NCBI GenBank assembly: GCA_020736575.1
Contig: JAGPYM010000004.1
Coordinates: 124,001-188,000 of the forward strand
Length of the DNA: 64,000 bases
DNA from: Thelonectria olida
Taxonomy: Eukaryota; Ascomycota; Sordariomycetes; Hypocreales; Nectriaceae
Direction: 5' to 3'
Shown: in pieces, positions 1 to 24,757 of the stretch
How positions within the stretch are numbered: position 1 is the first letter of the stretch
Layout: every line of letters begins with the position of its first letter
Program-made: the position numbers and the translations under genes
Notes under the pieces: model-generated
What the model saw: the letters and a program-made list of their open reading frames with translations, nothing else
What the model was told of the DNA's origin: nothing
Database searches by the model: none

Positions 1-1640
1 GCTCATCAGTCGCCTTCATTCAACCAACATCAGTTCTCGTCCCCGCCCGGCGGCCACTCACGACACACTTCGCTGGGCCCTGAGGCAGCACTGCTGCCCC
101 CCCAGATGGGCGATTGGAACCAGCCACAGTTCCAAGGCCACCGTCGAAGTCCCTCAGAATACTCAGACGTGTCTTCGTGCGCTCCCTCTCCCAATCTGGT
201 CAGCTCTGACACATTCGACAACGATGTCGGTGGCCATTCCCCGCACCAGCGTCCCTCAGATGCTGGCCTTTACGAGCCGGTACTGGGAATTGGTAGCTTC
301 AGCATTTCAGACAACAGTGGCAGAAGTCCCTCCCACAGCCCGGCCATCAGCCCTCGCATTAATCCGCAGCAGATGCCCGATCAACAACCTGGATTTGGTC
401 ATCTCGCACCCCTCGGTAGTGCATACGGAGTGCCTACAACTTACCCCGAGATTCCAGGGTCTGTCGAGGCCTTCCCTAGCCTCCAGGCTCCCGATATGGG
501 TCAAATGGCCCCTCCCGCCATCAACATCGATTATGCTCCTAATCCTAACAGAATCAACCCTTTTGATGGCCACGTTATGAAACCGAGCATGGATCAGGAT
601 TCCTTGACTCCCCCAGACCGAGGTATGTATTTAACATTTTTTCCTGTGTCAGGATCTTCTGACATTGTCCAGGTCGCCCCCGATCCCGGCCCAGAGCGGT
701 TACGGACCCCTTCCACCCCGGCGGTGGCTTATTGAACCGCCCCGTCAATGTCGGTGGCCTGTCCCCGTCCCTGGGTGTTGATCTGCGGTCCGACACTTCT
801 AGATCTCTGTCCCCTCTGGACAGGCAAGCCACGGCCTCTCCTTCTAGGAGAAGACAGTCCACGTCGGCAGTACCCAACAATGTTATTGCCTTGCGTCTGG
901 CCGACCCCGAGTATCAGAACAGTCAGGATAGCGGTGCGGCTAAGCGCGTCCAGAAGCACCCTGCTACATTCCAGTGTACCCTCTGCCCTAAGCGATTTAC
1001 TCGTGCTTATAACTTGCGGTCCCATCTAAGGACCCATACGGATGAGCGACCATTTGTCTGTACAGTCTGTGGCAAGGCCTTTGCTCGACAGCATGACCGT
1101 AAGCGACACGAAAGCCTGCACTCAGGCGAGAAGAAATTCGTCTGCAAGGGCGATCTCAAAGTCGGTGGCCAGTGGGGATGTGGCAGAAGGTTCGCTCGTG
1201 CTGATGCGCTTGGCCGTCATTTCCGATCTGAGGCGGGCCGTATTTGTATCAAGCCCTTGCTAGACGAAGAGATGATCGAACGACAGAGGGTCTGGCAAGA
1301 GCAGAGAATGCAGCAGAACATGGCCCAAAGCCTGGCAGCCCCGCCTGGAGCAATGGGGATGGAAGCTGCCGCCTATCCCATGGATCAAAGCGGTAATTAC
1401 ATGTTCCCTGCTGCGCTGTTGGCACAGTATCCTGCCCTGGCTCAGATGAACTGGTCAGCGCAGGAGGTCAACCAGGGCATGGACGATGATGTGAGCGGCC
1501 GGTCTTCGTTTGATGCTAGTGACTACGACGAAAATGAAGACGGTGGCTACGTGAGCGGACCTGGAACCGGATATGGTGAAGGGGGCATGCAGCAAGGCTT
1601 CGGTGAAATGGGATATGCGAGTGACTTTGGGGGTCGGTAA
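1..1640 (+). CDS. crz1: Crz1/CrzA-type C2H2 zinc-finger transcription factor (5' end outside window)
   Basis: This is the C-terminal part of a calcineurin-responsive transcription factor. The reading frame is already open at base 1, so the start lies upstream. Exons are 1-622 and 673-1640; the 50-bp intron has GTATGT, a CTGAC branch site and CAG. About 529 residues are visible. The first part is a Ser/Pro/Gln-rich disordered region with a PAINID hexamer at 514-531 that resembles a PxIxIT calcineurin docking site. Two classical C2H2 fingers follow (about 969-1037 and 1053-1121). A third, atypical finger lies at about 1137-1250, with widely spaced cysteines and a C2HC-like end; this finger set is typical of fungal Crz1. 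An acidic, Gly/Tyr-rich tail closes the protein. In the known family, calcineurin dephosphorylates Crz1 on calcium stress and it moves to the nucleus to activate ion-homeostasis and cell-wall genes. Family assignment is firm; regulation here is inferred. Confidence 0.92.
514..531 (+). other. PxIxIT-like calcineurin docking motif in Crz1
   Basis: The codons read PAINID, fitting P-x-I-x-I-[T/D/N]. The motif sits in the disordered region ahead of the zinc fingers, where Crz1 proteins bind calcineurin. The role is inferred from the family. Confidence 0.6.
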
Positions 1641-2601
1641 CTGCCGGCTCCCAACTGCCGTTTGGCAGTAGCCGTCTCAGGCCTCACTTGATCTGTTTTC
1701 TTCTTTTTGTCCTGTGACAATTCGTGCCTTTCACGGCAAGGGATGACCAGAGAGGCCTCCCGTTTTTATTATGTCATCAGCGATTTTGATTTCTTCTTCA
1801 TTTTCGTTCTCTTATGTCTTCTTTTGGATCAAGGGAACTTTGGATTGGCTGTACAACGAAGGGACTAGGCGCCATCAACGGCGATTTAGGAAAACACCTC
1901 TGTGGCTGGACAGAACGGTGTCAGCGTTTTGGCATTTTTACTTCTTGGGAGGGTTTTGGGGATAGACGGAACTGCGTATAGATACCAAACTGAGTCTGTT
2001 TCTCTTCGTAATCTGTGAAGCCGTTCTTCCTCTCTCTTCGCTGCCGTCTCCTTTGTCCTGCTCGTGCCTCTTATCATGACTTGTTGATTGTCAAGACATC
2101 TTGAATGATTGTGACGTGCCATATGTGGCTCAACGCGGATCACTAGGGTCTTGTTGAATCATTGGAGATACCTTTGATTGCAAACATGGAGTCGAATGAT
2201 TCAACTGGCAAGCAGATGGCTATATTATGATGATTTCAAGAACCCTTCCAGCCTATCCAGCAACAAATCCACCAACAAAGACGCAACAAAATACGACCCA
2301 TTGTAAAAGTGACTCCTTTCGAACCTTCACAGAGACTTTGCTTCGCCGACCCGTCCCTCATGCTCCATCCTTTTTTTGGTGCCAGGATATCTCAAAACGA
2401 ACAAAACACTCTTCGTAGTAAAACACATATATCCCAAACAAAGCCCAAACATGACTTGACCCGAACCTGACCTAATCCCACAGAATACAAAAACACAATT
2501 CCCTGTTTGCTAAACCCCCCACGTTTGCCTTGGGTGAAGGGGGCTTCCCCTAATAAACTAGGCTAGACCTCGTCGCCTCCGTCCCTCTCGCATAGCCCTC
2601 G
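1641..2601. other. Convergent 3' region between crz1 and the DUF7053-like gene
   Basis: This stretch separates the ends of two convergent genes. Reading frames are short on both strands and none looks coding. It is AT-richer than the flanking genes and probably holds both 3' untranslated regions. I see no RNA gene or mobile element. Confidence 0.6.
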
Positions 2602-3219
2602 TCATGGGTTGGTGATGCGCCGCCAGGTTCCGTTTCCGTCGTTCTCCCAAGGCACCGCAATCGGTACGCCAAAGTAGTTCTTGGTGATCTGGTCAATGAT
2701 GGCGTTGACGATGTGTTGGTGCGCGTCAAGGGCTTTCCCCGTGACAAACTGCATCAACAACGAGTTGGCTTCGATGCTCATGTCCTCGTTCAACTCGTAC
2801 TCGTCGCCCACGACCGTGACCGAGCTCCCCGTGCTGTCAGACCCGGCCGGCGACGTGGGCCCCGGGCGGGGCCGCACCGAGTAGTCGGACCGGATGGTGA
2901 CGCCGGCCGCGGCAGCGGCGCGGGTGCGGACGCCGTCGGGGGTGGGTTTGAACAGGACTTGGTACTCAATCGTCTTGGAGAGGCGCGGGGCTAGGCTGAT
3001 GACCTCCTGGCACTGGAAGCAGCGGAAGGAGTCGTCCCAGGGGCCGAAGAAGGGGTCGTCGGCGGCTACGGAGGGGTCGGGGGCCTGTTCTGTGAAGGAG
3101 ATGATGGTTTTGGACGTGGTCATGAAGGGGATGCAGGATTGCATGACGGAGAGGACGACGGTTGGGGGGATGTTGGCGGGGAGGGGGACGCTGTAGTTGT
3201 ACTGCTTTGTCGTTTTCAT
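2602..3219 (-). CDS. Conserved fungal protein resembling the DUF7053 family
   Basis: A single-exon gene of 205 residues with a normal ATG. The protein starts with a hydrophilic MKTTKQYNYSVPLP segment. A region compatible with a small alpha/beta fold follows: a cysteine pair (FRCFQCQ), the segment YQVLFKPTPDGVRTR, and a C-terminal helix ending near TGKALDAHQHIVNAI. This order (short TxxxPLP start, a 'predicted strand, PxGVxxR' core, and a final helix about 25 residues before the end) matches my recollection of uncharacterised ascomycete proteins grouped as DUF7053, which look START-like. There is no signal peptide or membrane segment. The DNA is GC-rich and the centre is a low-complexity Ala/Arg/Pro stretch. 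The molecular function is unknown. The gene converges with crz1 and has a very long upstream region. Confidence 0.7.
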   Translation of the reverse strand: MKTTKQYNYSVPLPANIPPTVVLSVMQSCIPFMTTSKTIISFTEQAPDPSVAADDPFFGPWDDSFRCFQCQEVISLAPRLSKTIEYQVLFKPTPDGVRTRAAAAAGVTIRSDYSVRPRPGPTSPAGSDSTGSSVTVVGDEYELNEDMSIEANSLLMQFVTGKALDAHQHIVNAIIDQITKNYFGVPIAVPWENDGNGTWRRITNP

Positions 3220-8700: not shown

Positions 8701-9787
8701 TTGACAGTCACTCCCGTCCCTTGCCCCCTCTCCCCTGCCAGCACGCTGCACTGCAAGCCTGGGCTGCCAGTCAACCGGGCTCGTTCGCTTGCCACAGTTA
8801 ATGCGCCGGTGCCCCGTCGAATTGTCCCCGCCAGTCGCTTCGTTGTAATACGCCCGGTGCGACGACTGACCTTCGTCTGGCCGACGATCCAAGCAAGCAC
8901 GCCGTCGTCATTGGCCCGCGGCACTACCCGCCTGTCGTGGTCCTGGATCCTGGGTCTTGTGCTTCTCCAGCCTGTTGAGGCCATCCCCTCTCCTCTTAAC
9001 CCTCCACTCTCTCTTCTGCTCGATTTTCTGGAACAAATCACACCTTTCTCGTCTGCCTCTGGCCCGGCGCAGCTCGAATCGACCTTGTTTCGCATGAGGT
9101 GAAGCGCTAGAGAGAGTACAACGCCGTCTCATACGAACCGTCCTCCGAGCCCGACGACCCAAACATCACGGACGCACGATCCACGACTGGGGTGGTTGGG
9201 CGAAAAGCGACGGCGCCCCCGACCAGAGAGTGACGCCTAGGATATTGATTAGGACCCTGGGAGCCTCTATCAACGACGGTTCCCCCAACCCGGCCTTCTT
9301 TTTTTGTGTTGGTCGTTGGCTCTGTCGAAATCCGCCCAGCAACGAAACCTAGACGGCGACATCTACCTTTTCACTTGCACGACGTCGCATCACGAATATT
9401 TACGATCCCCGAGAGTTGCACCATATTCTGCCCGAGCTTGTTTCTCGTAATTCCGCCATTACGACCACTTACACGAACTTTGATTTTGCGAACCTTCGAC
9501 GATAATTCTCGAACGCTCGAATCCTCCTCCGAAACACGCGCCTTCGATTTCCTTCCGGCCACCGCCATCTACAGCTTCCATGATTGTGACGTCGCCTCGT
9601 CTTCGCACTAGCTCCAATCTACACAATGGCCGCGGCCGACGTTTTGACGTTCACAGAAAGCAGGACAGGATGCGGATATGGATGGCAGACTCCCCGCCAT
9701 TTACTGGCTGGGTGGGATGAGCGAACTCTGCGCTTGCGGCTGGACTTGATTGCCCAAGCCTGGGTCGCGCAGAGTTCCCTTGGAAAG

Positions 9788-10003
9788 GTACGTGGGGGAT
9801 GATCTACCTTTGCCAGTTCTTCCGGGCCGCACCCGTTGGAACCTGCAGTTCCTTCAGTTCTCGAAGCTTATTTGCTTCATGAATCGTGCGTGGCGCTCAA
9901 CGGTCAACCCCTCGTTTGAGGGGAACCGGCGACGCCACCCCCCATTTACCCATACGATAGAACACGACCTCCTGAGAGTTTATCTAATGTGCCCTTTCTT
10001 TAG
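9788..10003 (+). other. Probable intron upstream of the giant ORF
   Basis: A GTACGT donor follows AAG, a CTAAT branch-like site lies near 9984, and a pyrimidine-rich CCCTTTCTTTAG acceptor ends at 10003. The 216-bp length is long for this locus. It is either a 5'-UTR intron or, because the exon from the ATG at 9626 is open and joins the giant frame in phase, the first coding intron. Confidence 0.6.
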
Positions 10004-10132
10004 GATTTGCCGACTTCCTTCTCTTCACAGCCATCTCTGACCTCGAGCCGCCTCATAGTACCCGACTCGTCACCGAGATGGTCGCGCCGCATCCCTACCA
10101 CGTGCGACCCAGCCGTTTCCTCCAATCGCATC

Positions 10133-13100
10133 ATGGACCCCAACAATACCGATGAATATGCCAGACGGAACCTACCCTCATGGATAGACGCCTTCCCGCT
10201 ACCTCCTGCTTCCAATTCGCCCCAGAAGCGCCGAACCAACAAGGATATTCTTGGTGACCCCACGTTCGACGTTTCAATAGACTTCAATTCCCAGGACGGG
10301 TTCTACGAGGCTGCTAAGAAAAAGAAGGGCGCTGCAAAGCAGTCACTCCCTCCTCCACCTCCCCCAGTTCCTCCACCACCTCCCGCTGAAGAACCCAACC
10401 CAAATGATGGCGCTGGAGGCGATTCTAACGGTGGGGATGGTGCAGGCGGCGCTGGAGATGGAAGTGGTAACAATGGCGGTGATGGTTGGTCCGACAATAC
10501 GGGAGCTAAATCAAAAAAGAAGAAAGGCAAAGGCGAGCTCGAAGAAGGCCTTCCAAGCATACCGACCAATGACTTTGGAGCAGACTCGTTTCAGGAGATC
10601 AAATTGGGAGATGACACAGGCGGGAAGCTTGATTTAGGTCTTGGTCAGTTGGAAACAAGGAATCTATCCAGTTCATGGGCTGACAAACATACAGGAGGCG
10701 CTGGGTGGGACTGGTCTGGCGGCGGAAACGATTCAAAGAAGAACGACAAGTCAAGGCTCTCCTTTGGTGAATTCGGAGCACCGGACGACCACCGCGCACT
10801 CAAACAGGAGAAGGAGGACCCCTGGGGTTTCGGCTCCAAGAAAGATGCCAAGAAGGACCCAGTGGGAGAAGCAGATCCATGGGGATGGGGCGCTTCCAAA
10901 AAGAAGGCTGTCCCAGAAGCTGCGCCTGGGAAGAAAGAGCAGGATGACATCTGGGATACTTGGGGAATCTCAAAGAAGGACCGCTCGAAAAAGAAGGGCA
11001 TCCTTGGCGACGAGGGCTCTGTGCTTGAGCCTGCACCCGATCCACCACCAGCAGAAGACTTGTGGGGTAGTGGTGGTGGTGGTGGTGGTGGTGGTGGTAA
11101 TGGTTGGTCTGGTGGCAAGAAGGAGAACAGGAACAGTTCATTCTGGGGTGAACCCGAAGTTCCCGTACCAGCACCGGAGCCACCACACCACGATACCAAG
11201 AACGACAGCGATGACTTCTGGACCACTTTCGGAGCGAAGAAGAAAACCCCAGTACAGGAGGTGGAAGAAGAGAAACCCGCCGAGGGAGGGGGGGGTTGGG
11301 CATCCTGGGGTTTATCATCGAAAAAGGCGGCGAAAATAAAGAACACCCTTTTCCCGGAATTTAGCGACGACAAAACCGAAGCTTCCAAAGGAGACGATGG
11401 TTGGGATCTTTGGGGAAAGAAGAAGCGAAACGACCTCATCAACCTGGCAGAGGACGTGCCGCCCCCAGCCCCAGATCCCGTGGAATCCGCGGGCGACGAT
11501 TTTCTTAGCTCTTGGGGTTTCGGGAAGAAGAAGAAAAAGACACCTGAGCCAGAACCTTCCCCCTGGAGACCAGATCATATCGAGGAACCCAGTGACGAGT
11601 TCTGGAACTCTGTTGGTAAGAAGAAGGCCGACCCACTTGATTTCTTGGAGAGCAATAACGGTAAGACTGTCCGACGTGACGAGGTGGAGGAGTTTTTGGG
11701 CAGCAAGGTTAACGAAGATGACGATGACAACTGGGGTTGGACTTCAAATTCCAAAACGAAGAAGTCTAATAATCAACCGAACGCCTTGACTGACCTACCT
11801 CCTCCAGCGCCGACACCCCCTGATATGGACTTTACTGAACTAAATGAACTAGTAGAAGGCCCGTTAGTCGACGAACAGGCCGTCAAGGAAGCCGAAGAAC
11901 GAGCCCTCAAGGAAGCCGAGGAGCAGGCGGCACGCGAGGCGGAAGAAGCCGAGGCGGCGGCCGAGGAAGTCGAGATTGCGACTTTACTCACGAAGAAGGA
12001 CAAGCGAGGTGGTAAGCTCCTTAAGAAGGATACGGAACGCCTCAATCTTCTTCAAGCCAATGCGGAGAGACGAGCTCAAGAACGAGCGGCCCGTGAAGCG
12101 GCGGAGCTGGCTGCAACGGCTGCTGCGGAAGCTGCTGCTGCGGAGGCGGCAGCAGCAGAGGAAGCAGCAGCAGCGACAGCGGAAGCAGCAGCGGAGGCAG
12201 AAGCGGTAGCCGCTCGCGAAGCCAAGGAACGAAAAGCAGCAGCCGAAGAAGAAGAGATGGCCGGCTTGCTTGCGAAGCAAGCAAAACGTGGAGCGAAGAT
12301 GCTGAAGAAGGACCAGGAACGACTGAGTGTCCTTCAGTCTCGTGCCAAAAAACGAGCTGAAGCACAATCCATTCGCGAAGCCGAGGAGCAAGCTGCTAGG
12401 GAAGCGGAGGAGGCCGCCGCCGCCGCCGCCGCAGAAGCCGCAGAGATTGCTAAAGAAGAGGAGGAACTCGCCACCCTTGAAGAGAAGAAAGCGAAACGAG
12501 GTGGCAAGTTGTTGAGGAAGGATGCTGAACGGTATGCATACCTCTTCGAAAGGGTCACCTCGAGAGCAGAAGAAAAGGCTGCTAAGGAAGCTGAGCAAGC
12601 TGCGCTGGAGGCCGAGGCACAAGCTGCGAAGGAAGCTGAAGAAGCTGCCGCCGCCGAGGCCGCCGTTGTTGCAGAGGCAGAAGCTGCTGCCGCCGCGGAA
12701 GCCGCTGAAGCGGAGGCTGCAGCTCAGGCCGCAGCGGATGCAGAAGCTGCCGAAATCGCCAAGGAAGAACAGGAGTTGAACACTCTCAAGGAAAAGAAGG
12801 CGAAGAAGGGCAAGTTCACGAAGAAGGATACCGAACGATTCACCTTCTTGATTGGTCAGTCTGTGAAACGAGCCCAAGATAAAGCTGCGAAGGAAGCCGA
12901 GGCTGCTGCTGCGAAGGAAGCGGAGGAACAAGCCGCCAAAGAGGCCGAGGAAGCTGCTGCCAAGGAAGCAGAGGAACAAGCTGCCCGAGAAGCCGAAGAA
13001 GCTGCTGCCAAAGAGGCGGCAGAGGCTGAAGCGGCAGAGATCGCCAAAGAAGAGGAAGAGCTAGCAACTTTGACAGCCAGGAAAGCTAAGAGGGGGAAGC

Positions 13101-16100
13101 TCCCCAAGGGCCCAGCTGATCGACTCGCCTTCCTCACAGACAGGGCCACTCAGCGAGCGGAGGCCCAAGCTGCCAAAGAGGCTGAAGATGCAGCGGCAGC
13201 CGCGGAAGCCCTATCACTAGATGAGGCTGTCGATCCCCCTCCTGAAGAGCTAGCCGAAGAGCCAGCCGAAGCGCCCATCGAAGCGCCCGCCGAGGAGCCA
13301 CCAGCCGAAGACCCTGCGATAGAAGAGCCACCTGCAGACGCTGAAGATGCTGAAGCTGCAGCAGCCCGAGAAGCTGAGGCCGCTGCGATTGCCGCGGAAG
13401 AAACAGAGCTTGCAGATCTCGAGGCCAAGAAAGCAAAGAAGGGCAAACTTGGCAGGAAGGATACAGATCGATATAATATCCTGACACAAAATGCCACTCA
13501 ACGAGCTGAGATAGCTGCCAAGGAGGCCGAGGAAGCAGCAGCAGCGGAGGCCGCAGCTGCAGAAGAGGCCGCAGCAGCTGAAGCAGCCGCCGCTGAAGAA
13601 GCAGCTGCAGCTGCCGCTGAAGCCGAAGCAGCCGCCGCTAGAGACGCTGAAGCCGCTGCCATTGCAGAAGAGGAGGCAGAGCTAGCTGAGCTGGCTGCCA
13701 AGAAGGCGAGAAGAGGCAAACTGTTGAAAAAGGAGCTGACCCGATTCGAGCTCCTAACAGCAAATGCCACCCAGCGAGCGGAAAAGGCAGCCCAGGAAGC
13801 CGAAGCTCTAGCAGCAAAGGAGGCAGAAGAGGCTGCCGCTGCTGCTGAAGCTGCCGCTGCTGAGGAAGCTGCCGCCGCCGCCGCCGAAGCCGAAGCCGCG
13901 CTTATTGCGGAAGAAGAGGCAGAGCTGGCCGAATTGGCTGCGAAGAAGGCCAGGAGGGGCAAGCTGGTGAAGAAGGATCTAACTCGGTTCGAGCTCCTGA
14001 CCGAAAATGCTTTCCAACGAGCCGAGAAAGCTGCAGCAGAAGCCGAAGCCAAAGCTCTGGCCAGGGAGGCGGAAGAGGAAGCAGCAGCAGCCGCAGCAGC
14101 CGCAACAGCCGCAGCTGACACCGCTTCCGATCCTGCTGTTGATGCTGTTGTCGACGACACTGTGAACGGTGAAGCCGATGCCCCCCCTGACGAGGTAGAA
14201 ACGCCGCCAATGGACGAAGCAGTAGATACCGCCGCGGAGGAAGCCGCTAAAGCTGGAGAGGCCGCCGCGAAGGAGGCCGAGGCTGCTCTCATTGCGGAAG
14301 AAGAAGCAGAACTGGCCGCCCTTGAAGCAAAGAAGGCAAAAAAGGGCAAGCTTTCCAAAGCGCACACTGAGCGATACAACGTTCTTCTTGAGAACTCTGT
14401 CCAGCGAGCTGTGAAAGCTGCAACCGAAGCTGAAGTCCAAGCAGCCAAGGAAGCGGAAGAAGCGGCCGCAGCAGAAGCTGAGGCCGCCGCCGCCGCCGCC
14501 GCCGCCGCTGCCGAAGAGGTGGACCCAGCTGCAGAAGAGGCTGCTGCAAAAGAAGCTGCAGAGGCTGAGGAAGCTGCTGCTAAGGAAGCAGAAGCTGAAG
14601 CGATTGCCGAGGAAGAGAAGGAGCTGGCTGCCCTCGAGACGAAGAAGGCAAGAAAAGGCAAACTTGGCAAGAAGGATACCGACCGATATTTCACCCTTAC
14701 GGATAATGCTGCCAAGCGAGCAAATGCTGCTGCGGAGGCCGAAGCACAAGCTGCTAGAGAGGCGGAAGAGTTAGCAGCCGCAGAGGCAGAGGCAGAGGCA
14801 GAGGCAGAGGCAGCCGCGGCAGCTGAGGCGGCGGCAGCGGCAGCAGCGGAAGAAGAAGCAGCAAAAGAGGCAGAGCTTGCTGCCATTGCTGAAGAGGAGG
14901 CAGAGCTGACTGCCCTCGAGACGAAGAAGACAAGAAAAGGCAAGCTTGGCAAGAAGGATACAGAGCGATATAATATCCTGATTGGTAATGCTACTGAACG
15001 TGCCGAGAAGGCAGCTGAGCGAGAGGCTGAAGCTGCCGCTGCCGCTGCCGCTGCCGAAGCTGAGGAACAAGCTGGCGCCGAACCCGACGTCGAAGCTGAT
15101 GTCGAAGTCGAAGTCGAGGCCGAAGTCGAAGCCGAACCTGAGGTCGAACCAGATCTTGAAGCTGATGTCGATGCTATTGCTGAAGCTGAAGAGCAAGCCG
15201 CGGCTGAAGCTGCAGCTGCGGAGGCAAAGGCTGCTATGATCGCTGAGGAGGAACATGAGCTTGCAACTCTTGAGGCCAAGAAGGCCAAGAAAGGCAAGCT
15301 TGGGAGGAAGGACACAGAACGCTATAACATCCTTTCTCAAAACATTGCTCAAAGGGCTCAAGAGGCAGCGGAAGCCGAAGCTGCCGCCGCGGCCGCGGCA
15401 GCTGAAGCTGAGCAACCACCTGCCGATCCTGATGATGACGATGACGACGTTTTCGAAGATGCAGATGATGTCTTTGAAGATGCATCCGACACAATCCCCA
15501 GAGAGCTTGATGCTGAAGACGATACTCCTGTTGGAGCCGATCCCGCCGAGACTATCGCAGCAGAGGACGCTGCTGCCGCAGAGGAAGCTGCCGCGAGAGA
15601 GGCAGAGGAAGCTGCAGAAGCCGCTGCAATTGCCGAGCAAGAAGCAGCGGAGCTAGCTGGCCTAGAGACTAAAAAGGCGAAGAAGGGTAAGCTTGGGAGG
15701 AAGGACACAGAGCGTTACCTGACCCTGACAGAGAGCGCTACGCAAAGAGCCGAGAAAGCAGCAGCAGAGCAAGCTGCGAAGGAGGCTGAGGAGGCTGCTG
15801 CAGAGGCTGCTGCTCTTGAAGCTGCAGAGGCAGAAGAGGCAGCTGCAAAGGAAGCGGCCGAGGCCGAAGCTGCAGCTGCCATTGCAGAAGAAGAGGCAGA
15901 GCTAGCTGCCCTTGAGGCCAAAAAGGCCAAAAAGGGGAAGCTAGGGAGGAAAGACACCGAACGCTTCAACCTCTTGGCTGAAAATGCTGCAATCAGGGCC
16001 CAGGAGGAAGCAGACAAGCAAGCAGCGGCAGAGGCAGAGGAAGCTGCAGCGGCAGAGGCGGCAGCGGCAGAGGAAGCGGCCGAAGCCGAATCAGCTGAAG

Positions 16101-19100
16101 CCGCCGCCGCCGCTGAAGAGGCTGCTGCGAAGGAAGCTGCCGAGGCTGAAGCGGCTGCTGCTATCGCCGCCGAGGAGGACGAACTGGCTCACCTGAGTGC
16201 CAAGAGAGCAAAGAAGGGCAAGCTCGGAAGAAAAGATACCGAACGCTTCAACATCCTTACGGACAACGCTGCTCAAAGAGCTGAGGCAGCGGCTGCTGAA
16301 CAAGCAGCCAAAGATGCCGAAGAAGCCGCCGCCGCTGAAGCTGATGAGGCGGCAGCAGCAGACGCCGAGGAGACAGCCGCCGCTGAAGCCGCTGAAGCCG
16401 CCGAAGCCGCCGCAGCCGCCGAAGCCGAGGAAGCGGCGGCCAAGGAGGCAGCAGAAGCTGAAGAAGCTGCCATTATCGCTGCAGAGGAACATGAGATTGC
16501 TAGTCTGCTTGCTAGAAAGGCAAAGAAAGGCAAACTGGGTCGCAAGGATACAGAGAGGCTCAACTTGTTGAATGAGAATGCTAACCAGCGTGCCGAGGCC
16601 AAGGCCGCTCGCGAAGCCGAGGAGGCTGCAGTTGCTGAAGAAGAGCTTCCAGAGGAATCCCCTGAGGCTGAGGAAGAGGCTCCGCCAGACGACGAGGAAG
16701 AGCCACCTGCCGAAGAGGATACGCCTGCAGAGGATCCTGAAGAACCTGCTCCTGAAGATGAAGAAGACAACGCTGCCGACATAGAGGCTGCCGAAAAGGA
16801 GGCCGCTGAAGCCGCAGAGGCTGCTCTTATTGCGGAGGAAGAAGCAGAGCTCGAACACTTGTCAGCAAAGAAGGCTAAGAAGGGCAAACTGGGCCGCAAG
16901 GATACTGAACGATTCCACATTCTGACTGAAAGCATGGCGACACGTGCCGCAGAGAAGGCCGCGCGAGAGGCTGAAGAGGCAGCGGCAGCGGAGGCTGCTG
17001 AACAAGCCGCCATTGAAGCTGAAGAAGCCGCCGCTGCCGAAGAAGCTGAGGCCCTCGCTGCTGCTGAGGCAGAAGAAGCTGCTGCCGCTGAGGCCGCCGA
17101 GGCCGAAGCTGCCGCCCAAGCTGCTGCCGAGATTGAAGCTGAAGAGGAGGAAATCGCACATTTGCAGGCAAAGAAGGCGAAAAAGGGAAAGCTCGGGAGA
17201 AAGGATCTCGAGAGGTACACTGTCCTCATCCAGCGCGCTGATGCCCGTGCTGCTGAACAAGCTGCCAAAGAGGCCGAAGAAGCAGCCGCAGCAGAAGCCG
17301 CTGCTGCCGAGGAGGCTGCACTTGCGGAAGCCGCTGCTGAAGCAGCCGCGGAAGAGGAAGCAGCAGCAGCTGAAGCCGCTGCTGAGGAGGAAGCAGCCGC
17401 AGCCGCTGCAGCAGCAGCAGAAGAGGCAGCCGCCGCAGAAGCAGCCGCCGCGGAAGCCGCGGCTCTTATCGAACAAGAAGAGGCTGAACTGGCAGCTTTA
17501 GAGAAGAAGAAGGCCAAGAAAGGCAAGCTTGGCAGGAAGGACCTGGAACGATATCATATCCTGACCGACAACATGACCATGCGTGCTGAAGAACAAGCCT
17601 CGAAAGACGCTGAGGAGGCTGCTGCGAAGGAAGCCGAAGAGCAAGCTGTCCGAGAGGCTGAGGAGGCTGAAGAGCAAGCTGCCCAAGAGGCTGAGGAGGC
17701 TGAAGAACAAGCTGCCCAAGAGGCTGAAGAGGCTGAAGAGCAAGCTGCCCAAGAGGCTGAAGAGGCCGAGGAGGCTGCCGCTGCTGAGGCCGCTGCCGCC
17801 GCCCTTGCTGAAGAGACCGCTGCCAAAGAAGCTGCCATGGCAGAAGCAGCCGCCATTGCTGAGGCTGAGGATGCCGAGCTGGAAGCCTTGAAGAAAAAGA
17901 AGGCGAAAAAGGGCAGGCTCGGCAGGAAAGACACAGACCGTTTCAATCTCTTGGCCGACAACGCCAGCAAGAGGGCCGAGGAGGCGGCCGCTGCCACTGC
18001 TGCTGCCGCTGCCGCCGAAGCCGAGCTTGAAGAAGCCCCTGAGGAAGTTGAAGAGGAAGATGCATACGAAACTCCTGATGAGGGAGATGACGATGAAGAG
18101 GAAGAGGAAGAGAAGGACGAAGAAGCAGAGGCTAGTGGTGCGGAGGTCGAAGTCGAAGCTGAAGACGAAGACGAAGCCGAGGAAGCCGCAGAAGTGGCAG
18201 CGGAAAAAGCAGCGGACGATGAGGCAGATGAAGAGGATGACGAGGACGTAGATGATGATGTCGATGACGATGCGGAAGAAAACGCTGCTGAATTGGAAGT
18301 CGAAGAGGCACCTGCTGAAGACGCCGCCAAAGAGGATCCTGAAGAAGCTGCTGATTCTGAGACTGATTCTGACGCGGAAGCTGCCGAGGAAGAAGCAGCG
18401 GAAGACGCCGCGGAGGCAGATGCCCCCGCTGACGAAATGGCTGATAGGGAAGTCCCTGACGAGGTCGACGAAGCACCTCCTGTCGAAGCTCCCGAACCTG
18501 CTGAGGAACAAGCTGAAGCTGATATGGCAGTCGTCGAGGCACCTAGGAAGTCCAAGAAGAGCCGGAAGAGCAAGTCCCGACGGACTCCTGATGTCCCACC
18601 GCCTGTGCCAGACCCTCCTATCACTCCTCCACCGGAGCCGAGATCCTCCAAGAAGGAACGGGCCAAACTCAACCGCGAGGGGAGTTCATGGAGCAAGATG
18701 TCAGCAACGCCACGAGAAGAAAGGAGACGCCCATCGACTGCCAAGTCCAAGTCGAAGTCCAAGTCAAGCAGGCGAGCAGAGAGGGACGAAAAGGTGTCCT
18801 CGAAGGAATCTTCCGAAGACAAGACACCATCACGATCTCGAGTTCCTCCTCTCTTTAGCACACCGCCCATCACTCGTACAATGTCTTCTCGCGAACCGAG
18901 GAGCACCATGAGCGGTAGACGTCGCCACTCTGAGTTGGCCCGTGGCCTTACCTCACCACCCCCAGAAGAAATCCCAGAGGAAGTGCCGGACAAGGCAAGC
19001 AAGTTTTTCGGCATGGACAGGGAGAGGCCGTCCCATAGAAGAAGGTCCACACGGCACGGACGATCACGGGAGGACGAAGATATGGAAATGTCTGGGGCTC

Positions 19101-20308
19101 TGGATGTTGAAGAGAGCCCCGAGAAACCCGATCGTCGACGATCGAGACGCCCCCCGCCCGAAGAAGATATTGTCATGGTCGAGTCTGGCGGCCCCTCCGA
19201 CACCCCTCTCAAGCGTGGCTCATCAAAGCGGACGTCTGGCATTTCTGGCCTGTTTGCCGGCCTGATGACGCCTAAGTCGGAGCGTCCTGAGCCGTTACGA
19301 CGTCGCAACACTTACGCCACGACTGACGATGAAGCTGTTCGCGCTGCACGTATGGATGGCGACGCAGAGGTTATCGATCCTGAACGGGAGGCGCGACGCG
19401 CTGCTCGTAGAGCTAGGCGAGCTGAGCGTGAAGGTGGCGAGCGCGAAGATGATGGAGAAAAACGCGCGAGGGACGAGGCACGACGTGAGCGGCGCCGTCG
19501 TCGGGAGGCGGAAGCCGACCCTGAAGCCCAGATCCCACAAGATGAAGACCGAGAGGCTCGAAGGAGAGAGGAGAGAGAAGCCCGGCGTGCAGAGCGACGA
19601 GCTGCTCGTGAGCGTGAGGAGGACGAACGCCGGGCTCAAGAGGAACGGGAAGCTCGACGAGAAGAGCGGCGCCAAGCTCGCAGGGAGAAGGAAGAGGCAG
19701 CAGCAGCGGCAGCGACAGCTGAACAAGAAGAAGAGGCTCGCAGAGCGGCGCGACGTGAACGTCGACGATCTCGACAAGTCGACCTCGACCCAGCGGAAGA
19801 GGATCCTGAACGTCGTCGCCGTCGCGAGGCTAGACGAGCAGCTCGAGCGGTAGAGGAAGAGGAGGGAGGAGGCGAAGACAGCTACCACCGCAAGAGTCGT
19901 CGACCCGAGGGCGAATCGGGTGATGAATATGCGCGCCGCAGAGCGCGCCGTCGCGAGGAGCGAGAGAGAAACGGGCCGGCATGGCCTCACTCTGGGACTT
20001 CCTCCTGGGTCAAGGAGGTCTCAGATGCACCACCGCCGCCTGAAGATATTGCTCCCGTCGAAGGGACGATGGAAGACGACGGGGCCGCTCGCGAAGTCCA
20101 CCGATCCAGAAGGCGAACCAAGAACTTCGACGGAACACCCGAGGACACGGATGACCAGCGACGGCGACGAGCCAGACGTGAGGAACGTGAGCGTGAGCGT
20201 GATCGCGAGCGGCGATCCGAGGGAAGCGACGAGCGCTACTACGGTCGCCGCAACTCGGCGTATGTGGACAACCCTCGCACCAGCTGGTGGAGGAAGCTCA
20301 CAGGATAG
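10133..20308 (+). CDS. Giant Ala/Glu/Lys-rich repeat protein, about 3,391 residues
   Basis: One exon with an uninterrupted frame of 10.2 kb. The first in-frame ATG is at 10133 (MDPNNTDEY); an alternative upstream start is at 9626. Segments: a proline-rich stretch (about residues 75-90); a region (about 115-550) with some ten Trp/Gly-Lys motifs of the form W-x-x-[WF]-G-x-K-K-K; a Gly run near 310-325; then about 610-2617 with 20 modules of roughly 105 residues. Each module has a conserved core (EEEAELAALEAKK, then AKKGKLGRKDTERY, then ILTxNAxxRAE) followed by variable Ala/Glu spacer. After that come a strongly acidic block (about 2630-2800), a basic Ser/Pro block with many SP sites, an Arg/Glu helix-like region (about 3080-3280) and a tail ending SWWRKLTG. 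There is no signal peptide or membrane segment. Composition predicts long alpha-helix or disorder. Function is unknown. Its size and charged repeats recall fungal septal-pore and Woronin-body tether proteins (leashin, SPA), but that is analogy only. Confidence 0.85.
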   Translation: MDPNNTDEYARRNLPSWIDAFPLPPASNSPQKRRTNKDILGDPTFDVSIDFNSQDGFYEAAKKKKGAAKQSLPPPPPPVPPPPPAEEPNPNDGAGGDSNGGDGAGGAGDGSGNNGGDGWSDNTGAKSKKKKGKGELEEGLPSIPTNDFGADSFQEIKLGDDTGGKLDLGLGQLETRNLSSSWADKHTGGAGWDWSGGGNDSKKNDKSRLSFGEFGAPDDHRALKQEKEDPWGFGSKKDAKKDPVGEADPWGWGASKKKAVPEAAPGKKEQDDIWDTWGISKKDRSKKKGILGDEGSVLEPAPDPPPAEDLWGSGGGGGGGGGNGWSGGKKENRNSSFWGEPEVPVPAPEPPHHDTKNDSDDFWTTFGAKKKTPVQEVEEEKPAEGGGGWASWGLSSKKAAKIKNTLFPEFSDDKTEASKGDDGWDLWGKKKRNDLINLAEDVPPPAPDPVESAGDDFLSSWGFGKKKKKTPEPEPSPWRPDHIEEPSDEFWNSVGKKKADPLDFLESNNGKTVRRDEVEEFLGSKVNEDDDDNWGWTSNSKTKKSNNQPNALTDLPPPAPTPPDMDFTELNELVEGPLVDEQAVKEAEERALKEAEEQAAREAEEAEAAAEEVEIATLLTKKDKRGGKLLKKDTERLNLLQANAERRAQERAAREAAELAATAAAEAAAAEAAAAEEAAAATAEAAAEAEAVAAREAKERKAAAEEEEMAGLLAKQAKRGAKMLKKDQERLSVLQSRAKKRAEAQSIREAEEQAAREAEEAAAAAAAEAAEIAKEEEELATLEEKKAKRGGKLLRKDAERYAYLFERVTSRAEEKAAKEAEQAALEAEAQAAKEAEEAAAAEAAVVAEAEAAAAAEAAEAEAAAQAAADAEAAEIAKEEQELNTLKEKKAKKGKFTKKDTERFTFLIGQSVKRAQDKAAKEAEAAAAKEAEEQAAKEAEEAAAKEAEEQAAREAEEAAAKEAAEAEAAEIAKEEEELATLTARKAKRGKLPKGPADRLAFLTDRATQRAEAQAAKEAEDAAAAAEALSLDEAVDPPPEELAEEPAEAPIEAPAEEPPAEDPAIEEPPADAEDAEAAAAREAEAAAIAAEETELADLEAKKAKKGKLGRKDTDRYNILTQNATQRAEIAAKEAEEAAAAEAAAAEEAAAAEAAAAEEAAAAAAEAEAAAARDAEAAAIAEEEAELAELAAKKARRGKLLKKELTRFELLTANATQRAEKAAQEAEALAAKEAEEAAAAAEAAAAEEAAAAAAEAEAALIAEEEAELAELAAKKARRGKLVKKDLTRFELLTENAFQRAEKAAAEAEAKALAREAEEEAAAAAAAATAAADTASDPAVDAVVDDTVNGEADAPPDEVETPPMDEAVDTAAEEAAKAGEAAAKEAEAALIAEEEAELAALEAKKAKKGKLSKAHTERYNVLLENSVQRAVKAATEAEVQAAKEAEEAAAAEAEAAAAAAAAAAEEVDPAAEEAAAKEAAEAEEAAAKEAEAEAIAEEEKELAALETKKARKGKLGKKDTDRYFTLTDNAAKRANAAAEAEAQAAREAEELAAAEAEAEAEAEAAAAAEAAAAAAAEEEAAKEAELAAIAEEEAELTALETKKTRKGKLGKKDTERYNILIGNATERAEKAAEREAEAAAAAAAAEAEEQAGAEPDVEADVEVEVEAEVEAEPEVEPDLEADVDAIAEAEEQAAAEAAAAEAKAAMIAEEEHELATLEAKKAKKGKLGRKDTERYNILSQNIAQRAQEAAEAEAAAAAAAAEAEQPPADPDDDDDDVFEDADDVFEDASDTIPRELDAEDDTPVGADPAETIAAEDAAAAEEAAAREAEEAAEAAAIAEQEAAELAGLETKKAKKGKLGRKDTERYLTLTESATQRAEKAAAEQAAKEAEEAAAEAAALEAAEAEEAAAKEAAEAEAAAAIAEEEAELAALEAKKAKKGKLGRKDTERFNLLAENAAIRAQEEADKQAAAEAEEAAAAEAAAAEEAAEAESAEAAAAAEEAAAKEAAEAEAAAAIAAEEDELAHLSAKRAKKGKLGRKDTERFNILTDNAAQRAEAAAAEQAAKDAEEAAAAEADEAAAADAEETAAAEAAEAAEAAAAAEAEEAAAKEAAEAEEAAIIAAEEHEIASLLARKAKKGKLGRKDTERLNLLNENANQRAEAKAAREAEEAAVAEEELPEESPEAEEEAPPDDEEEPPAEEDTPAEDPEEPAPEDEEDNAADIEAAEKEAAEAAEAALIAEEEAELEHLSAKKAKKGKLGRKDTERFHILTESMATRAAEKAAREAEEAAAAEAAEQAAIEAEEAAAAEEAEALAAAEAEEAAAAEAAEAEAAAQAAAEIEAEEEEIAHLQAKKAKKGKLGRKDLERYTVLIQRADARAAEQAAKEAEEAAAAEAAAAEEAALAEAAAEAAAEEEAAAAEAAAEEEAAAAAAAAAEEAAAAEAAAAEAAALIEQEEAELAALEKKKAKKGKLGRKDLERYHILTDNMTMRAEEQASKDAEEAAAKEAEEQAVREAEEAEEQAAQEAEEAEEQAAQEAEEAEEQAAQEAEEAEEAAAAEAAAAALAEETAAKEAAMAEAAAIAEAEDAELEALKKKKAKKGRLGRKDTDRFNLLADNASKRAEEAAAATAAAAAAEAELEEAPEEVEEEDAYETPDEGDDDEEEEEEKDEEAEASGAEVEVEAEDEDEAEEAAEVAAEKAADDEADEEDDEDVDDDVDDDAEENAAELEVEEAPAEDAAKEDPEEAADSETDSDAEAAEEEAAEDAAEADAPADEMADREVPDEVDEAPPVEAPEPAEEQAEADMAVVEAPRKSKKSRKSKSRRTPDVPPPVPDPPITPPPEPRSSKKERAKLNREGSSWSKMSATPREERRRPSTAKSKSKSKSSRRAERDEKVSSKESSEDKTPSRSRVPPLFSTPPITRTMSSREPRSTMSGRRRHSELARGLTSPPPEEIPEEVPDKASKFFGMDRERPSHRRRSTRHGRSREDEDMEMSGALDVEESPEKPDRRRSRRPPPEEDIVMVESGGPSDTPLKRGSSKRTSGISGLFAGLMTPKSERPEPLRRRNTYATTDDEAVRAARMDGDAEVIDPEREARRAARRARRAEREGGEREDDGEKRARDEARRERRRRREAEADPEAQIPQDEDREARRREEREARRAERRAAREREEDERRAQEEREARREERRQARREKEEAAAAAATAEQEEEARRAARRERRRSRQVDLDPAEEDPERRRRREARRAARAVEEEEGGGEDSYHRKSRRPEGESGDEYARRRARRREERERNGPAWPHSGTSSWVKEVSDAPPPPEDIAPVEGTMEDDGAAREVHRSRRRTKNFDGTPEDTDDQRRRRARREERERERDRERRSEGSDERYYGRRNSAYVDNPRTSWWRKLTG
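10480..11790 (+). repeat. Coding array of Trp/Gly-Lys motifs
   Basis: Within the N-terminal third, short motifs recur roughly every 35-50 residues: acidic residue(s), W or F, two residues, W/F/V, G, then K-K-K. Examples are DPWGWGASKKKA, DIWDTWGISKKD, DFWTTFGAKKKT, WASWGLSSKKAA, WDLWGKKKR, FLSSWGFGKKKKK and EFWNSVGKKK. The DNA is divergent between copies, so the motif is kept at protein level. Confidence 0.8.
11965..17985 (+). repeat. 20 tandem modules of about 105 residues (KKGKLGRKDTERY repeats)
   Basis: Core motifs centre near 12010, 12290, 12500, 12805, 13095, 13440, 13715, 13950, 14345, 14655, 14940, 15290, 15685, 15935, 16215, 16525, 16885, 17190, 17520 and 17910. The early copies (1-5) are the most divergent (GGKLLKKDTER, GAKMLKKDQER, GKLPKGPADR). 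Copies 12-19 are nearly identical in the core. Spacers are Ala/Glu runs of varying length; copies 5, 8, 11, 12 and 16 carry acidic or proline-rich inserts. Confidence 0.9.
17640..17775 (+). repeat. Nested 33-bp tandem repeat in module 19
   Basis: A 33-bp unit encoding an 11-residue EEQAAQEAEEA-type block repeats at least three times with only one or two silent changes per copy. This marks it as much younger than the surrounding modules. Confidence 0.85.
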
Positions 20309-21759: not shown

Positions 21760-24757
21760 ATGGCTGCCCCGGGCAAGCCCGCCGGCGGCTCGCGCTGGGG
21801 TTCATTCCTCTCCCAGGCCGTCGCCGGCGTCGAGTCTCGCCTTGACAACATGCTTACCGAGGGTGAGCAAGCCGAACGTCAGCAGCAATTAGCCGCCGCG
21901 AAGGCTGCTGCGGCCAAAAAGGAACCCCAACCTGCCGCGAAGCCAGCACCTGGTGCGTAACCCCCTTCTCTACCTCGACAGCCCCCCTACACCAATTGTC
22001 CCCGATTATACCGCTTAGGTCCGAGCTGATCTTTGGGTTTCATAGCACCGAGAGGCCGACCCAACGATCGACTGCAAGCTAGGTTAGCCAAAGCTGTTGC
22101 CGCTAGGAACGCTCAGCATGGAGGCTCTCCACGTAGCTCTGTCGACCAGCCCAGATCTTCATCCTCCGTCCGCACTTCAATAGACAAGGAGGCTCGTCCG
22201 AGTCTCGACTCGCTACGCCCAGACTCCAAGCCCGCGACACCAGATCCCGCTGCCGATTCCGCCTTCCCGAAGCCATCGCCTGCTACAACACCTGCCCCGG
22301 ATCCCCCGAGCTCAAAGGATGAGGTCGTCATCGTTAAAGAGGCGCCTTCTATGGAGGCAATGCCTGATTTCTCCAAATCTACACCTCCGACCCCTTCTGC
22401 GAGTGACACAACCAACGGGGTGACAGCGCAGGCCGATGCGAAACCCGACACTGCGCCCGAGGTGAAGAATGAGAGCAAGGTTGAAGTTAAGACTGAGGAT
22501 AACTCCAATATCAAGCCTGAAGTCAAGCCCGAGACGGAACGGGAGAGCAAACTTGAGCCCCCGACGCAAACAAAGGAGCCCGAGACGAAGGAACCTCTAA
22601 AGCCAGCCCCCACGAAGCAAGAGCCGAATAACGAAGAGCCCGTGAAGGAGGAGTTTAAAAAGGATGAACCGAAGAAGGGAAAGGCAAAGAGGGAAGAGCC
22701 GAAGGCGCAAGAACCTAACAAGGAGACGCCAAAGAAGGAAGAAATCAAGACACAAGCGCCCGAGAAGCCGACACAAACACCGACGGCCGTTGATGCTGAA
22801 CAGACTGCCGAGAGCTCACACACCAATGAGGAACTCGAAACCATCAAGGCTCGTCAACAGGAAGAGATCCAAGAATACGTCGAGAGGATCGATGCCCTCC
22901 AATCCAAGCTGCAGTACCTCTCCAAGAACGCAGTGGAAGCCGCAAAGAAGAGCAAGTCAGCTGCTGCCAAGGGAAGTGTAGAGCAAAAGCTTGCAGAGAA
23001 GGACGAGAAGATTGCTCTGCTCATGGGTGAAGGCCAAAAGTTATCAACTACCGAAGGGAAATTCAGAACCACTATCAGGAAACTTCGCGCCCAGATCGCA
23101 GACCACGAGAAGCAGATCGACGAGTTGAAGAAGGGCAAGGAAAAGTCGGCTGCCGAGATTGAGGCAATGCGCAATAGTGTGAATAGTAATGAGGAGCAGG
23201 AGAAACGGAATGAGGAGGTGCGGAAAGCGAGCAACGCCTTAGAAAAGCAAATTGATGCCTTGAAGAAGGACATCGCAGCAAGAGACGAGGCCTACAAGCG
23301 CCTGGAACACGATGCAAAAGTTAAGGCAGAACAGGCAGAGTTTGCGAACGCTGAAGCGCTCGGCAAGGCTTTGGGTGCAGAACGGGAGAAACAAAAGGCA
23401 CTCGAAAGCATCATTACGAGCCTTCGGGCAGAGAAGGAAGCAGTGTCAGAAAAGGCACGTTTAGACACCGCCGAGTGGAAAGAGAAGGTAGATCGTGCGA
23501 CGGAACGGAGTCGTCACTTGGAAGAAGAGCTCAAACTCGAGTTGCGGGCGTCGGAGAGCAAATTAGAAGCCATGAGGGTGGCAGCTGAGGACGCCTCGTC
23601 TGGCATTGGGGGAGAATCACAGATCAAGCTTATCCGGCAGATTGAGACGTTGCAGTCACAGTATGCGTCGGCAAGCGATAACTGGCAGGGCATCGAAGCT
23701 TCTTTGCTGGCCAAGGTGTCGAACTTGGAGAAGGAGTGGGATGAAGCACAGCGTCGAGAGTCAGAGATGCGAAAGAAGGCTCGTGATTCGGTAAGCCATT
23801 TTACTCGTCTTCGCCACCACAGTTCGATCAATGTTGACTCCTTTTTAGGCCAGCCGCTGCAGACAGCTTGAAGACGAGTTGCAGGACGTCACCCCCGCGC
23901 TTGCAACTGCTCGTCAGGAGCTCGAAACTTGCCGTGAAGAGCTCGCTAGTCTCCGCACTCAGTTCAAGACAAAGGAGACAGCGCTCGAGCAAGCAAAGGC
24001 CGAGTTGGAGAAGCAACAACGCTCGACAAGCTTTGCTGCAGAAGTCGAGCGTCGACAGTGGGCAGAGAGCCAGAGCCGTCCCGAATCGCCAAGGCTGTCC
24101 GTTCCCCGAACCTTTAGTTCTGACTTGAGTGGCCTGCCTTTGCCCGGCCGACCACCTCGACGATCTCCGACTCCCAACAGTAACGACGGTGGCCCCGAGG
24201 GCATGTTCTTTGGCCGACGATTGTCCAACCAACCTCCTATACGGACCAGCACTCTGTCAACGCCGGGGTCGGGAATGGTACCGCCACCTCCGTTGTCGCC
24301 GTTTGAACCACCAAGCGAGTCACCTCGGGCGACGTCGCCGCCTCTAGACCGAGACGACGACCTCGAGTCATCTGCTCCACGGAACGTGGCACAGGACATG
24401 ATTTCCGTGTCGACGGTAGGGGCGGGACCATCGGTTCAGCTGGTGGAGAGGATGAGCGCGGCCATTCGCAGGCTCGAAGCCGAGAAAGTGGCTGCCAAGG
24501 AGGAGATGGTACGAATATGCAGTCAACGAGATGAAGCGAGGTCCGACATGGTTGGCCTGATGAAGGACGTCGAAGCCAACAAGGCAGCTACGGTAAGAGT
24601 ACAAGAGCTCGAAACGGAGATGGAGAATATCAACCAGAGGTATCAGACCACGTTGGAGCTTCTCGGTGAAAAGAGCGAGCTTGTTGAGGAATTAAAGGCA
24701 GATGTGCAAGATGTCAAGGCCATGTATCGGGACTTGGTTGAGCGAACCATCAAATAG
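21760..24757 (+). CDS. Sgm1/TMF-like Golgi coiled-coil protein (golgin)
   Basis: Exons are 21760-21952, 22046-23790 and 23849-24757, giving 948 residues. Intron 1 uses a GTGCGT donor; intron 2 is GTAAGC to TTTTTAG. The N-terminus carries a short amphipathic start (RWGSFLSQAVAGVESRL) like that of TMF proteins. Then come a Pro/Glu/Lys-rich disordered region, a long coiled coil from about residue 330 (ETIKARQQEEIQEYVERIDA), a Ser/Pro linker, and a final coiled coil from about 830 to the end (VQLVERMSAAIRRLEAEKVA to AMYRDLVERTIK). This last segment matches the C-terminal TMF domain that binds Rab6/Ypt6. In yeast Sgm1 and animal TMF1 the protein tethers vesicles at the Golgi. The gene converges with nas6, leaving 120 bp. 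Family call is good; the partner is inferred. Confidence 0.85.

Follow-up and report, generated by a model that had tools for sequence, protein, structure and literature searches.

Giant repeat proteins of two described kinds, spectrin-type rods and the leashins, offer the closest comparisons for a gene that we analyzed in the fungus Thelonectria olida. Spectrin-type rods have a repeat spacing of about 100 residues, with helices running from one repeat into the next, and in this they resemble the array reported here. For the leashins, the published description gives sizes of 5,936 to 10,821 residues, repeats of the types LPVDEDLDLLPALPES and PEEVELPASP, and many introns (PMC2690989); a transmembrane anchor near the C-terminus is described for Lah and LAH-2 in a second paper (PMC5345055). 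The gene lies in a stretch of 64,000 nucleotides (contig JAGPYM010000004.1, positions 124,001 to 188,000 of the forward strand), which is referred to below as the window and within which all positions are counted. Its product contains 20 copies of a conserved module and, judging from the sequence, is a giant mould protein, conserved and uncharacterised, with a repeat that has no match in Pfam. We give an even chance to the reading that it is a single-copy structural protein of about 3,488 residues serving as a helical spacer or scaffold, with an evolvable length and adhesive ends.

The open reading frame is on the forward strand, and from an ATG at 10133 to a stop codon closing at 20308 it encodes 3,391 residues (26% Ala, 20% Glu), confirming the 10.2-kb frame of the original prediction, which had been made from the sequence alone. 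As predicted there, it holds a conserved core between variable Ala/Glu-rich spacers, the latter differing in both length and sequence. The core alignment yielded exactly 20 copies, the number first counted, at residues ca. 605 to 2618 of the 3,391-residue numbering. Located by core alignment and profile, these are:

11945..12085, forward strand, core module 1
12227..12367, forward strand, core module 2
12437..12577, forward strand, core module 3
12743..12883, forward strand, core module 4
13028..13168, forward strand, core module 5
13376..13516, forward strand, core module 6
13649..13789, forward strand, core module 7
13892..14032, forward strand, core module 8
14279..14419, forward strand, core module 9
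14591..14731, forward strand, core module 10
14873..15013, forward strand, core module 11
15227..15367, forward strand, core module 12
15620..15760, forward strand, core module 13
15869..16009, forward strand, core module 14 (in the two- and three-module models)
16151..16291, forward strand, core module 15 (in the two- and three-module models)
16463..16603, forward strand, core module 16 (in the three-module model)
16817..16957, forward strand, core module 17
17120..17260, forward strand, core module 18
17456..17596, forward strand, core module 19
17846..17986, forward strand, core module 20

Five core columns (E, R, L, R and A) are identical in all 20 copies, and the profile built from the cores scores 50 to 80 bits on every copy, values that are high by construction. 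The spacing, originally described as even, is only roughly so, ranging from 70 to 131 residues (mean 103.5, standard deviation 16.7). The comparison of silent sites disregarded the columns ahead of the turn wherever module 1, 2 or 3 was the first copy of a pair; identical residues were encoded by the same codon in 42% of 4,429 copy-pair comparisons, while codon usage alone predicts 37%. For adjacent copies the values were 45% observed and 38% expected, and a few pairs of copies, modules 10 and 11 among them, have higher codon sharing (0.67 vs. 0.38). Because silent codons are nearly as free as codon usage allows, the copies of the array are old, and their core sequence has been kept by selection. 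Recent tandem duplication of the cores was rejected, the silent sites being too different.

The core could not be placed in any known family by Pfam or PDB searches, which agrees with the inability of the original prediction to name one. With the 3,391-residue protein, Pfam returned no family at E up to 10, and hence no Spectrin profile match either; with the 20 cores it returned two families, each for one core, the best E of 0.011 not being convincing. A PDB sequence search with the whole protein gave no match at E ≤ 0.001, and the core profile gave ten PDB matches within E 10, the best at 1.2 and none of them convincing. Seven of these fall in the kinases Fyn and Yes, on stretches resembling GKLGRKD, and were judged to be due to chance. 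In the 52.5-Mb source genome, neither the N-terminal part, nor a 364-residue piece from the array, nor the C-terminal part has a match anywhere except at this locus.

Relatives were sought in two protein searches that scored only the candidates sharing most words with the query. With the whole protein as query, 7,989 candidates were scored and 15 of them were relatives at E ≤ 0.001; the C-terminus of one of them, P0004, found 24 proteins, itself included, among 7,970. Together the searches yielded 24 relatives (P0002 to P0025) of 1,639 to 3,141 residues, 15 of them with a species name; their records are named hypothetical or uncharacterised, and one is also named after TMF. A search of the open-licence literature with six of their locus tags found no paper. 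The named matches come from Xylariales, Diaporthales and Hypocreales, and from Podosphaera (Leotiomycetes) and Teloschistaceae (Lecanoromycetes); the lineages of six species were checked, and with the remainder we take all 15 to be Pezizomycotina. No counterpart from Neurospora, Fusarium or Aspergillus appeared in the match lists, an absence that is not evidence, as the lists cover most-shared-word candidates only and 15 of 24 entries are named.

A C-terminal alignment of the window protein with 15 relatives revealed a common TSSWV block and an S.W.KK-type end. For P0021 to P0025 the C-terminal matches are weak, at E 9e-9 to 7e-4, and part of them falls in Arg-rich sequence; when P0022 to P0025 were aligned, they had in common the blocks GKAA..MG and TSSWV and an SW-K-type end, the same end being found in P0021. 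In a C-terminal tree of 22 proteins (517 columns) the window protein and the Ophiocordyceps australis protein P0018 form a pair supported at 0.986; several deeper nodes are weak. Residues 1375-1625 of P0018, used as a query, found only P0018 itself among 3,199 candidates, so that the segment either changes rapidly or is missed by the word filter.

An iterated profile, on which the best of 250 block-shuffled sequences scored 6.8 bits, detected modules in 19 of 25 proteins (the 24 relatives and the window protein), 187 in all. There are 24 modules in P0002, 21 in P0009, 20 in the window protein, 14 in P0020, 12 in P0011, 4 in P0013 and 1 in P0018; seven others, grouping with Diaporthales, have 9-10, five Xylariales-like proteins have 2 to 8, and P0019 and P0021-P0025 have none. 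Relatives without a species name were assigned to groups by the C-terminal tree and by likeness. All 18 relatives with hairpin modules (1 to 24 copies) group with Sordariomycetes, and the six others have none. Across all family modules one Leu is present in 100%, one Arg in 99%, a further Leu in 96% and one Glu in 94%. In six relatives the median spacing is 75-90.5 residues, which hints at a length constraint, although single gaps are as long as 382; the spacers of six relatives examined are less rich in Ala and Glu than those of the window protein. The ends occur in more relatives than the modules do, and the hairpin array is an elaboration, seen here only in proteins grouping with Sordariomycetes. 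Both the repeat and the grouping of the relatives in a single Pezizomycotina family have good support.

The gene, described originally as intronless, probably has two exons. The upstream limit of the frame is a TAG at 10001. This triplet itself closes a predicted GT-AG intron of 216 nt, in which a GTACGT 5' end, a CTAAT branch-like site and a TTTCTTTAG 3' end are recognisable. Before it lies a predicted exon of 54 codons, with the ATG context ACACAATGGCC and an in-frame junction with 10004; reading through from 9626 into the predicted intron meets a stop codon. The proposed gene model is:

9626..9787, forward strand, predicted 5' coding exon of 54 codons (GT-AG intron in frame; peptide alignment with relatives)
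9788..10003, forward strand, predicted intron of 216 nt (sequence signals; stop codon on read-through)
10004..20308, forward strand, main coding exon including the stop codon (open frame)

The exon 1 peptide, MAAADVL...RLRLDLIAQAWV (MAAADVL...RLDLIAQAWV), can be aligned with the annotated N-termini of relatives, and the window protein shares the MAAA...RL.LI..AW peptide of the family. A BLASTP search of a tiny database (the 24 relatives only), with composition correction off, gave E 2e-6 for P0004 and P0013, 0.002-0.006 for P0006, P0007, P0011 and P0019, and weaker values for P0020, P0008 and P0018, that is, E < 0.01 in 6 of the 24; phmmer reached E < 0.01 for three only (P0013, P0004 and P0019). 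A start of the form MA[AT][AS] is present in 9 of the 11 relatives chosen for N-terminal alignment. With both exons, the protein probably comprises about 3,488 residues.

The structure of two and of three consecutive modules (for three, residues 1902-2175 of the 3,391-residue numbering) was modelled with AlphaFold2, which predicts long helices of 90-100 residues joined by hairpin turns at GKLG; the helix confidence is high, and the angles between the arms are uncertain. The 18-row alignment of three modules placed the outer modules badly; for the model 8 rows without long spacers were retained and 10 dropped, and one of the 8 was shifted by one module and lacked the third. The modelled core superposes on YnzC (UPF0291) and PrgI, both of which we take to be two-helix hairpins, at 2.2-2.6 Å over 51-63 residues; the likeness to YnzC is one of superposition only, at 10-11% identity and without a Pfam match. 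Foldseek found no PDB match at E ≤ 0.001 for either model.

Averaged net charges are -5 for the first helix of the core, +6 for the surroundings of the turn, about 0 for the second helix and -16 for a spacer; the array as a whole has a net charge of -298. This profile, together with the confident helix prediction, bears out the original proposal of charged helices with repeated basic turns. The continuous regular filament that was also suggested is doubtful, because 5 of the 19 spacers (5, 8, 11, 12 and 16) hold 3-11 Pro and 5-17 Asp; the other 14 hold at most one Pro. The 19 arms summed at 0.15 nm per residue give 284 nm, an upper bound for the contour only. The spacers drift and carry short DNA repeats, and such tandem repeats are a likely route of length change. 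A heptad coiled coil along the spacers of the window protein was rejected, lag 7 being below chance and lags 8 and 11 above it. The lag 8/11 period of Ala and polar residues comes partly from short DNA repeats and persists without spacers 4 and 19. In five relatives with enough spacers it is weak or missing (z 2.1 at lag 8 in P0009); lags 4 and 7 are seen instead in P0020 (z 4.4 and 2.9) and P0004 (z 2.7 and 2.2), where coiled-coil packing of the arms is conceivable. Spacer periods were not used as evidence. Spacers 4 and 19 (about 12884-13011 and 17628-17773) contain tandem repeats of 24 nt and 33 nt (8 and 11 residues). Inside the Pro/Asp-rich break between modules 12 and 13 (about 15440-15490) an acidic DVFEDA is repeated, which may be a candidate binding motif.

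On either side of the array, the following features were found:

10487..11791, forward strand, Trp/poly-Lys short-motif (W...KK) region (motif count vs. shuffles)
18053..18622, forward strand, strongly acidic stretch of 190 residues, net charge -75 (composition)
18623..20305, forward strand, Arg-rich C-terminal region of 561 residues with blocks common to relatives (search, alignment, composition)
19982..20014, forward strand, conserved WPHSGTSSWVK block, its WPHSG present also in 14 of 24 relatives (alignment)
20282..20308, forward strand, conserved C-terminal end SWWRKLTG and stop codon (alignment)

The Trp/poly-Lys motif occurs 12 times in the first 690 residues, as against a mean of 1.8 and a maximum of 5 over 500 shuffles. 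Of 20 relatives tested over their first 1,000 residues, 10 had more copies of it than any shuffle and the other 10 did not. The N-terminal region of the window protein is rich in Lys and Gly, and KKKKGK-type stretches are present. No transmembrane stretch was found in the protein, the highest 19-residue hydropathy (0.96) lying inside the Ala-rich array. The Trp/poly-Lys motifs and the SWWRKLTG end resemble aromatic-basic contacts with membranes and could act as such.

Directly downstream is a TMF gene (22033-24757, forward strand) with both TMF domains. The model of one relative, P0013, has both TMF domains following the giant protein and probably joins two neighbouring genes in one annotation; the order giant protein-TMF would then be a shared family feature, conserved in this one Hypocreales relative. 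Upstream, a C2H2 zinc-finger protein gene was noted (663-1640, forward strand), whose product, by eye, is presumably like the calcineurin-responsive factor CRZ1.

From these features we infer a tether or scaffold, together with its partners and the contacts within the hairpin. About 59% of the protein would be a chain of 20 two-helix hairpins, with arms of 66-127 residues, mostly Ala/Glu-rich helix, between successive GKLG turns; the chain would zigzag like a folding ruler, the five Pro/Asp-rich breaks giving it flexibility. Each hairpin would carry a basic turn. Probably it is stabilised by a small apolar core, in which Ile, Leu and Leu face Leu/Tyr, Leu and Ala, and by contacts of the near-invariant helix 1 Glu with the helix 2 Arg. 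How far the protein reaches would depend on its number of hairpins, and binding would be left to the ends, the Trp/poly-Lys N-terminal region and the Arg-rich C-terminus with its aromatic-basic motif, so that two partners, be they membrane, cytoskeleton or a large assembly, would most likely be held at a distance. More tentatively, this may be a new class of protein ruler, an extensible zigzag rod built of single-turn hairpins with helices of 90-100 residues between them; hairpins would be gained and lost, and the reach would evolve with them, on a Pezizomycotina scaffold that is conserved and has adhesive ends. The novelty is one of architecture, not of principle. The range of 0 to 24 modules among the relatives found is a natural experiment on length change in a molecular spacer, and the repeat offers a designable helical ruler. 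A role at the septum or cortex is possible, and a protein placed at septa, tip or cortex would be a new component of hyphal architecture.

The alternative that fares best, although unlikely, is a septal-pore or Woronin-body protein, the original prediction having been reminded of giant fungal tethers of that kind: either leashin itself, whose N-terminus binds WSC at Woronin bodies, or a disordered SPA/SPP protein aggregating or tethering at the septum. Its giant size, charged repeats and Arg-rich low-complexity C-terminus fit this, as does the placing of all 15 named relatives in Pezizomycotina (six lineages checked). Arg and His are favoured in the disordered parts of SPA and SPP proteins, but the same bias is described as avoiding Lys and Gly (PMC10023807), in both of which the N-terminal region here is rich. 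A likeness to leashin is not supported by a comparison of published features, not of sequences: the protein is shorter than the 5,936-10,821 residues reported and has other repeats (PMC2690989), and it lacks the transmembrane stretch of Lah and LAH-2 (PMC5345055). The repeats themselves are weak evidence, since LAH-1 is said to be unrelated to the other Lah proteins and the middle parts are not conserved.

It is rather improbable that the modules are largely neutral filler, produced by slippage of short repeats, and that only the two ends matter. The short tandem repeats inside spacers, the module number of 0 to 24 and the single module of P0018, the nearest protein in the C-terminal tree, would be expected of filler; however, the core sequence is kept although silent sites are near-randomised, it is recognisable in proteins of three orders, and the short tandem repeats lie mostly in the spacers. 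Equally improbable is a nuclear or nucleolar charged scaffold, whose poly-Lys motifs and Arg-rich tail would bind nucleic acid or import receptors and whose acidic array would bind basic proteins such as histones or ribosomal proteins: the KKKKGK-type stretches and the net charges of the array and the acidic stretch suggest it, but the argument is purely compositional, Pfam gave no nucleic-acid domain, and to our knowledge conserved Trp residues and a SWWRKLTG end are unusual in such a scaffold.

Compared with described systems, the proposed spacer is like the leashins LAH-1 and LAH-2 and Aspergillus Lah in being a giant, acidic Pezizomycotina protein with a repeat-rich middle and more conserved ends. 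It differs from them in size, with about 3,488 residues here and 1,639-3,141 in relatives vs. at least 5,936 published for leashin, and in having no C-terminal transmembrane stretch (maximum hydropathy 0.96); the published leashin R1-R3 repeat units (PMC2690989) are not matched by the module, a weak test, as middle parts are not conserved between species. Unlike spectrin, the array has one turn per about 100 residues and predicted arms about three times longer, with no three-helix bundle predicted. YnzC (UPF0291) and PrgI resemble the core in fold comparison only. With the uncharacterised family of Sordariomycetes, Leotiomycetes and Lecanoromycetes, the protein has in common the C-terminal blocks and the Trp/poly-Lys region, as well as, in part, the peptide of the N-terminal exon, whereas the module count differs, from 0 to 24.
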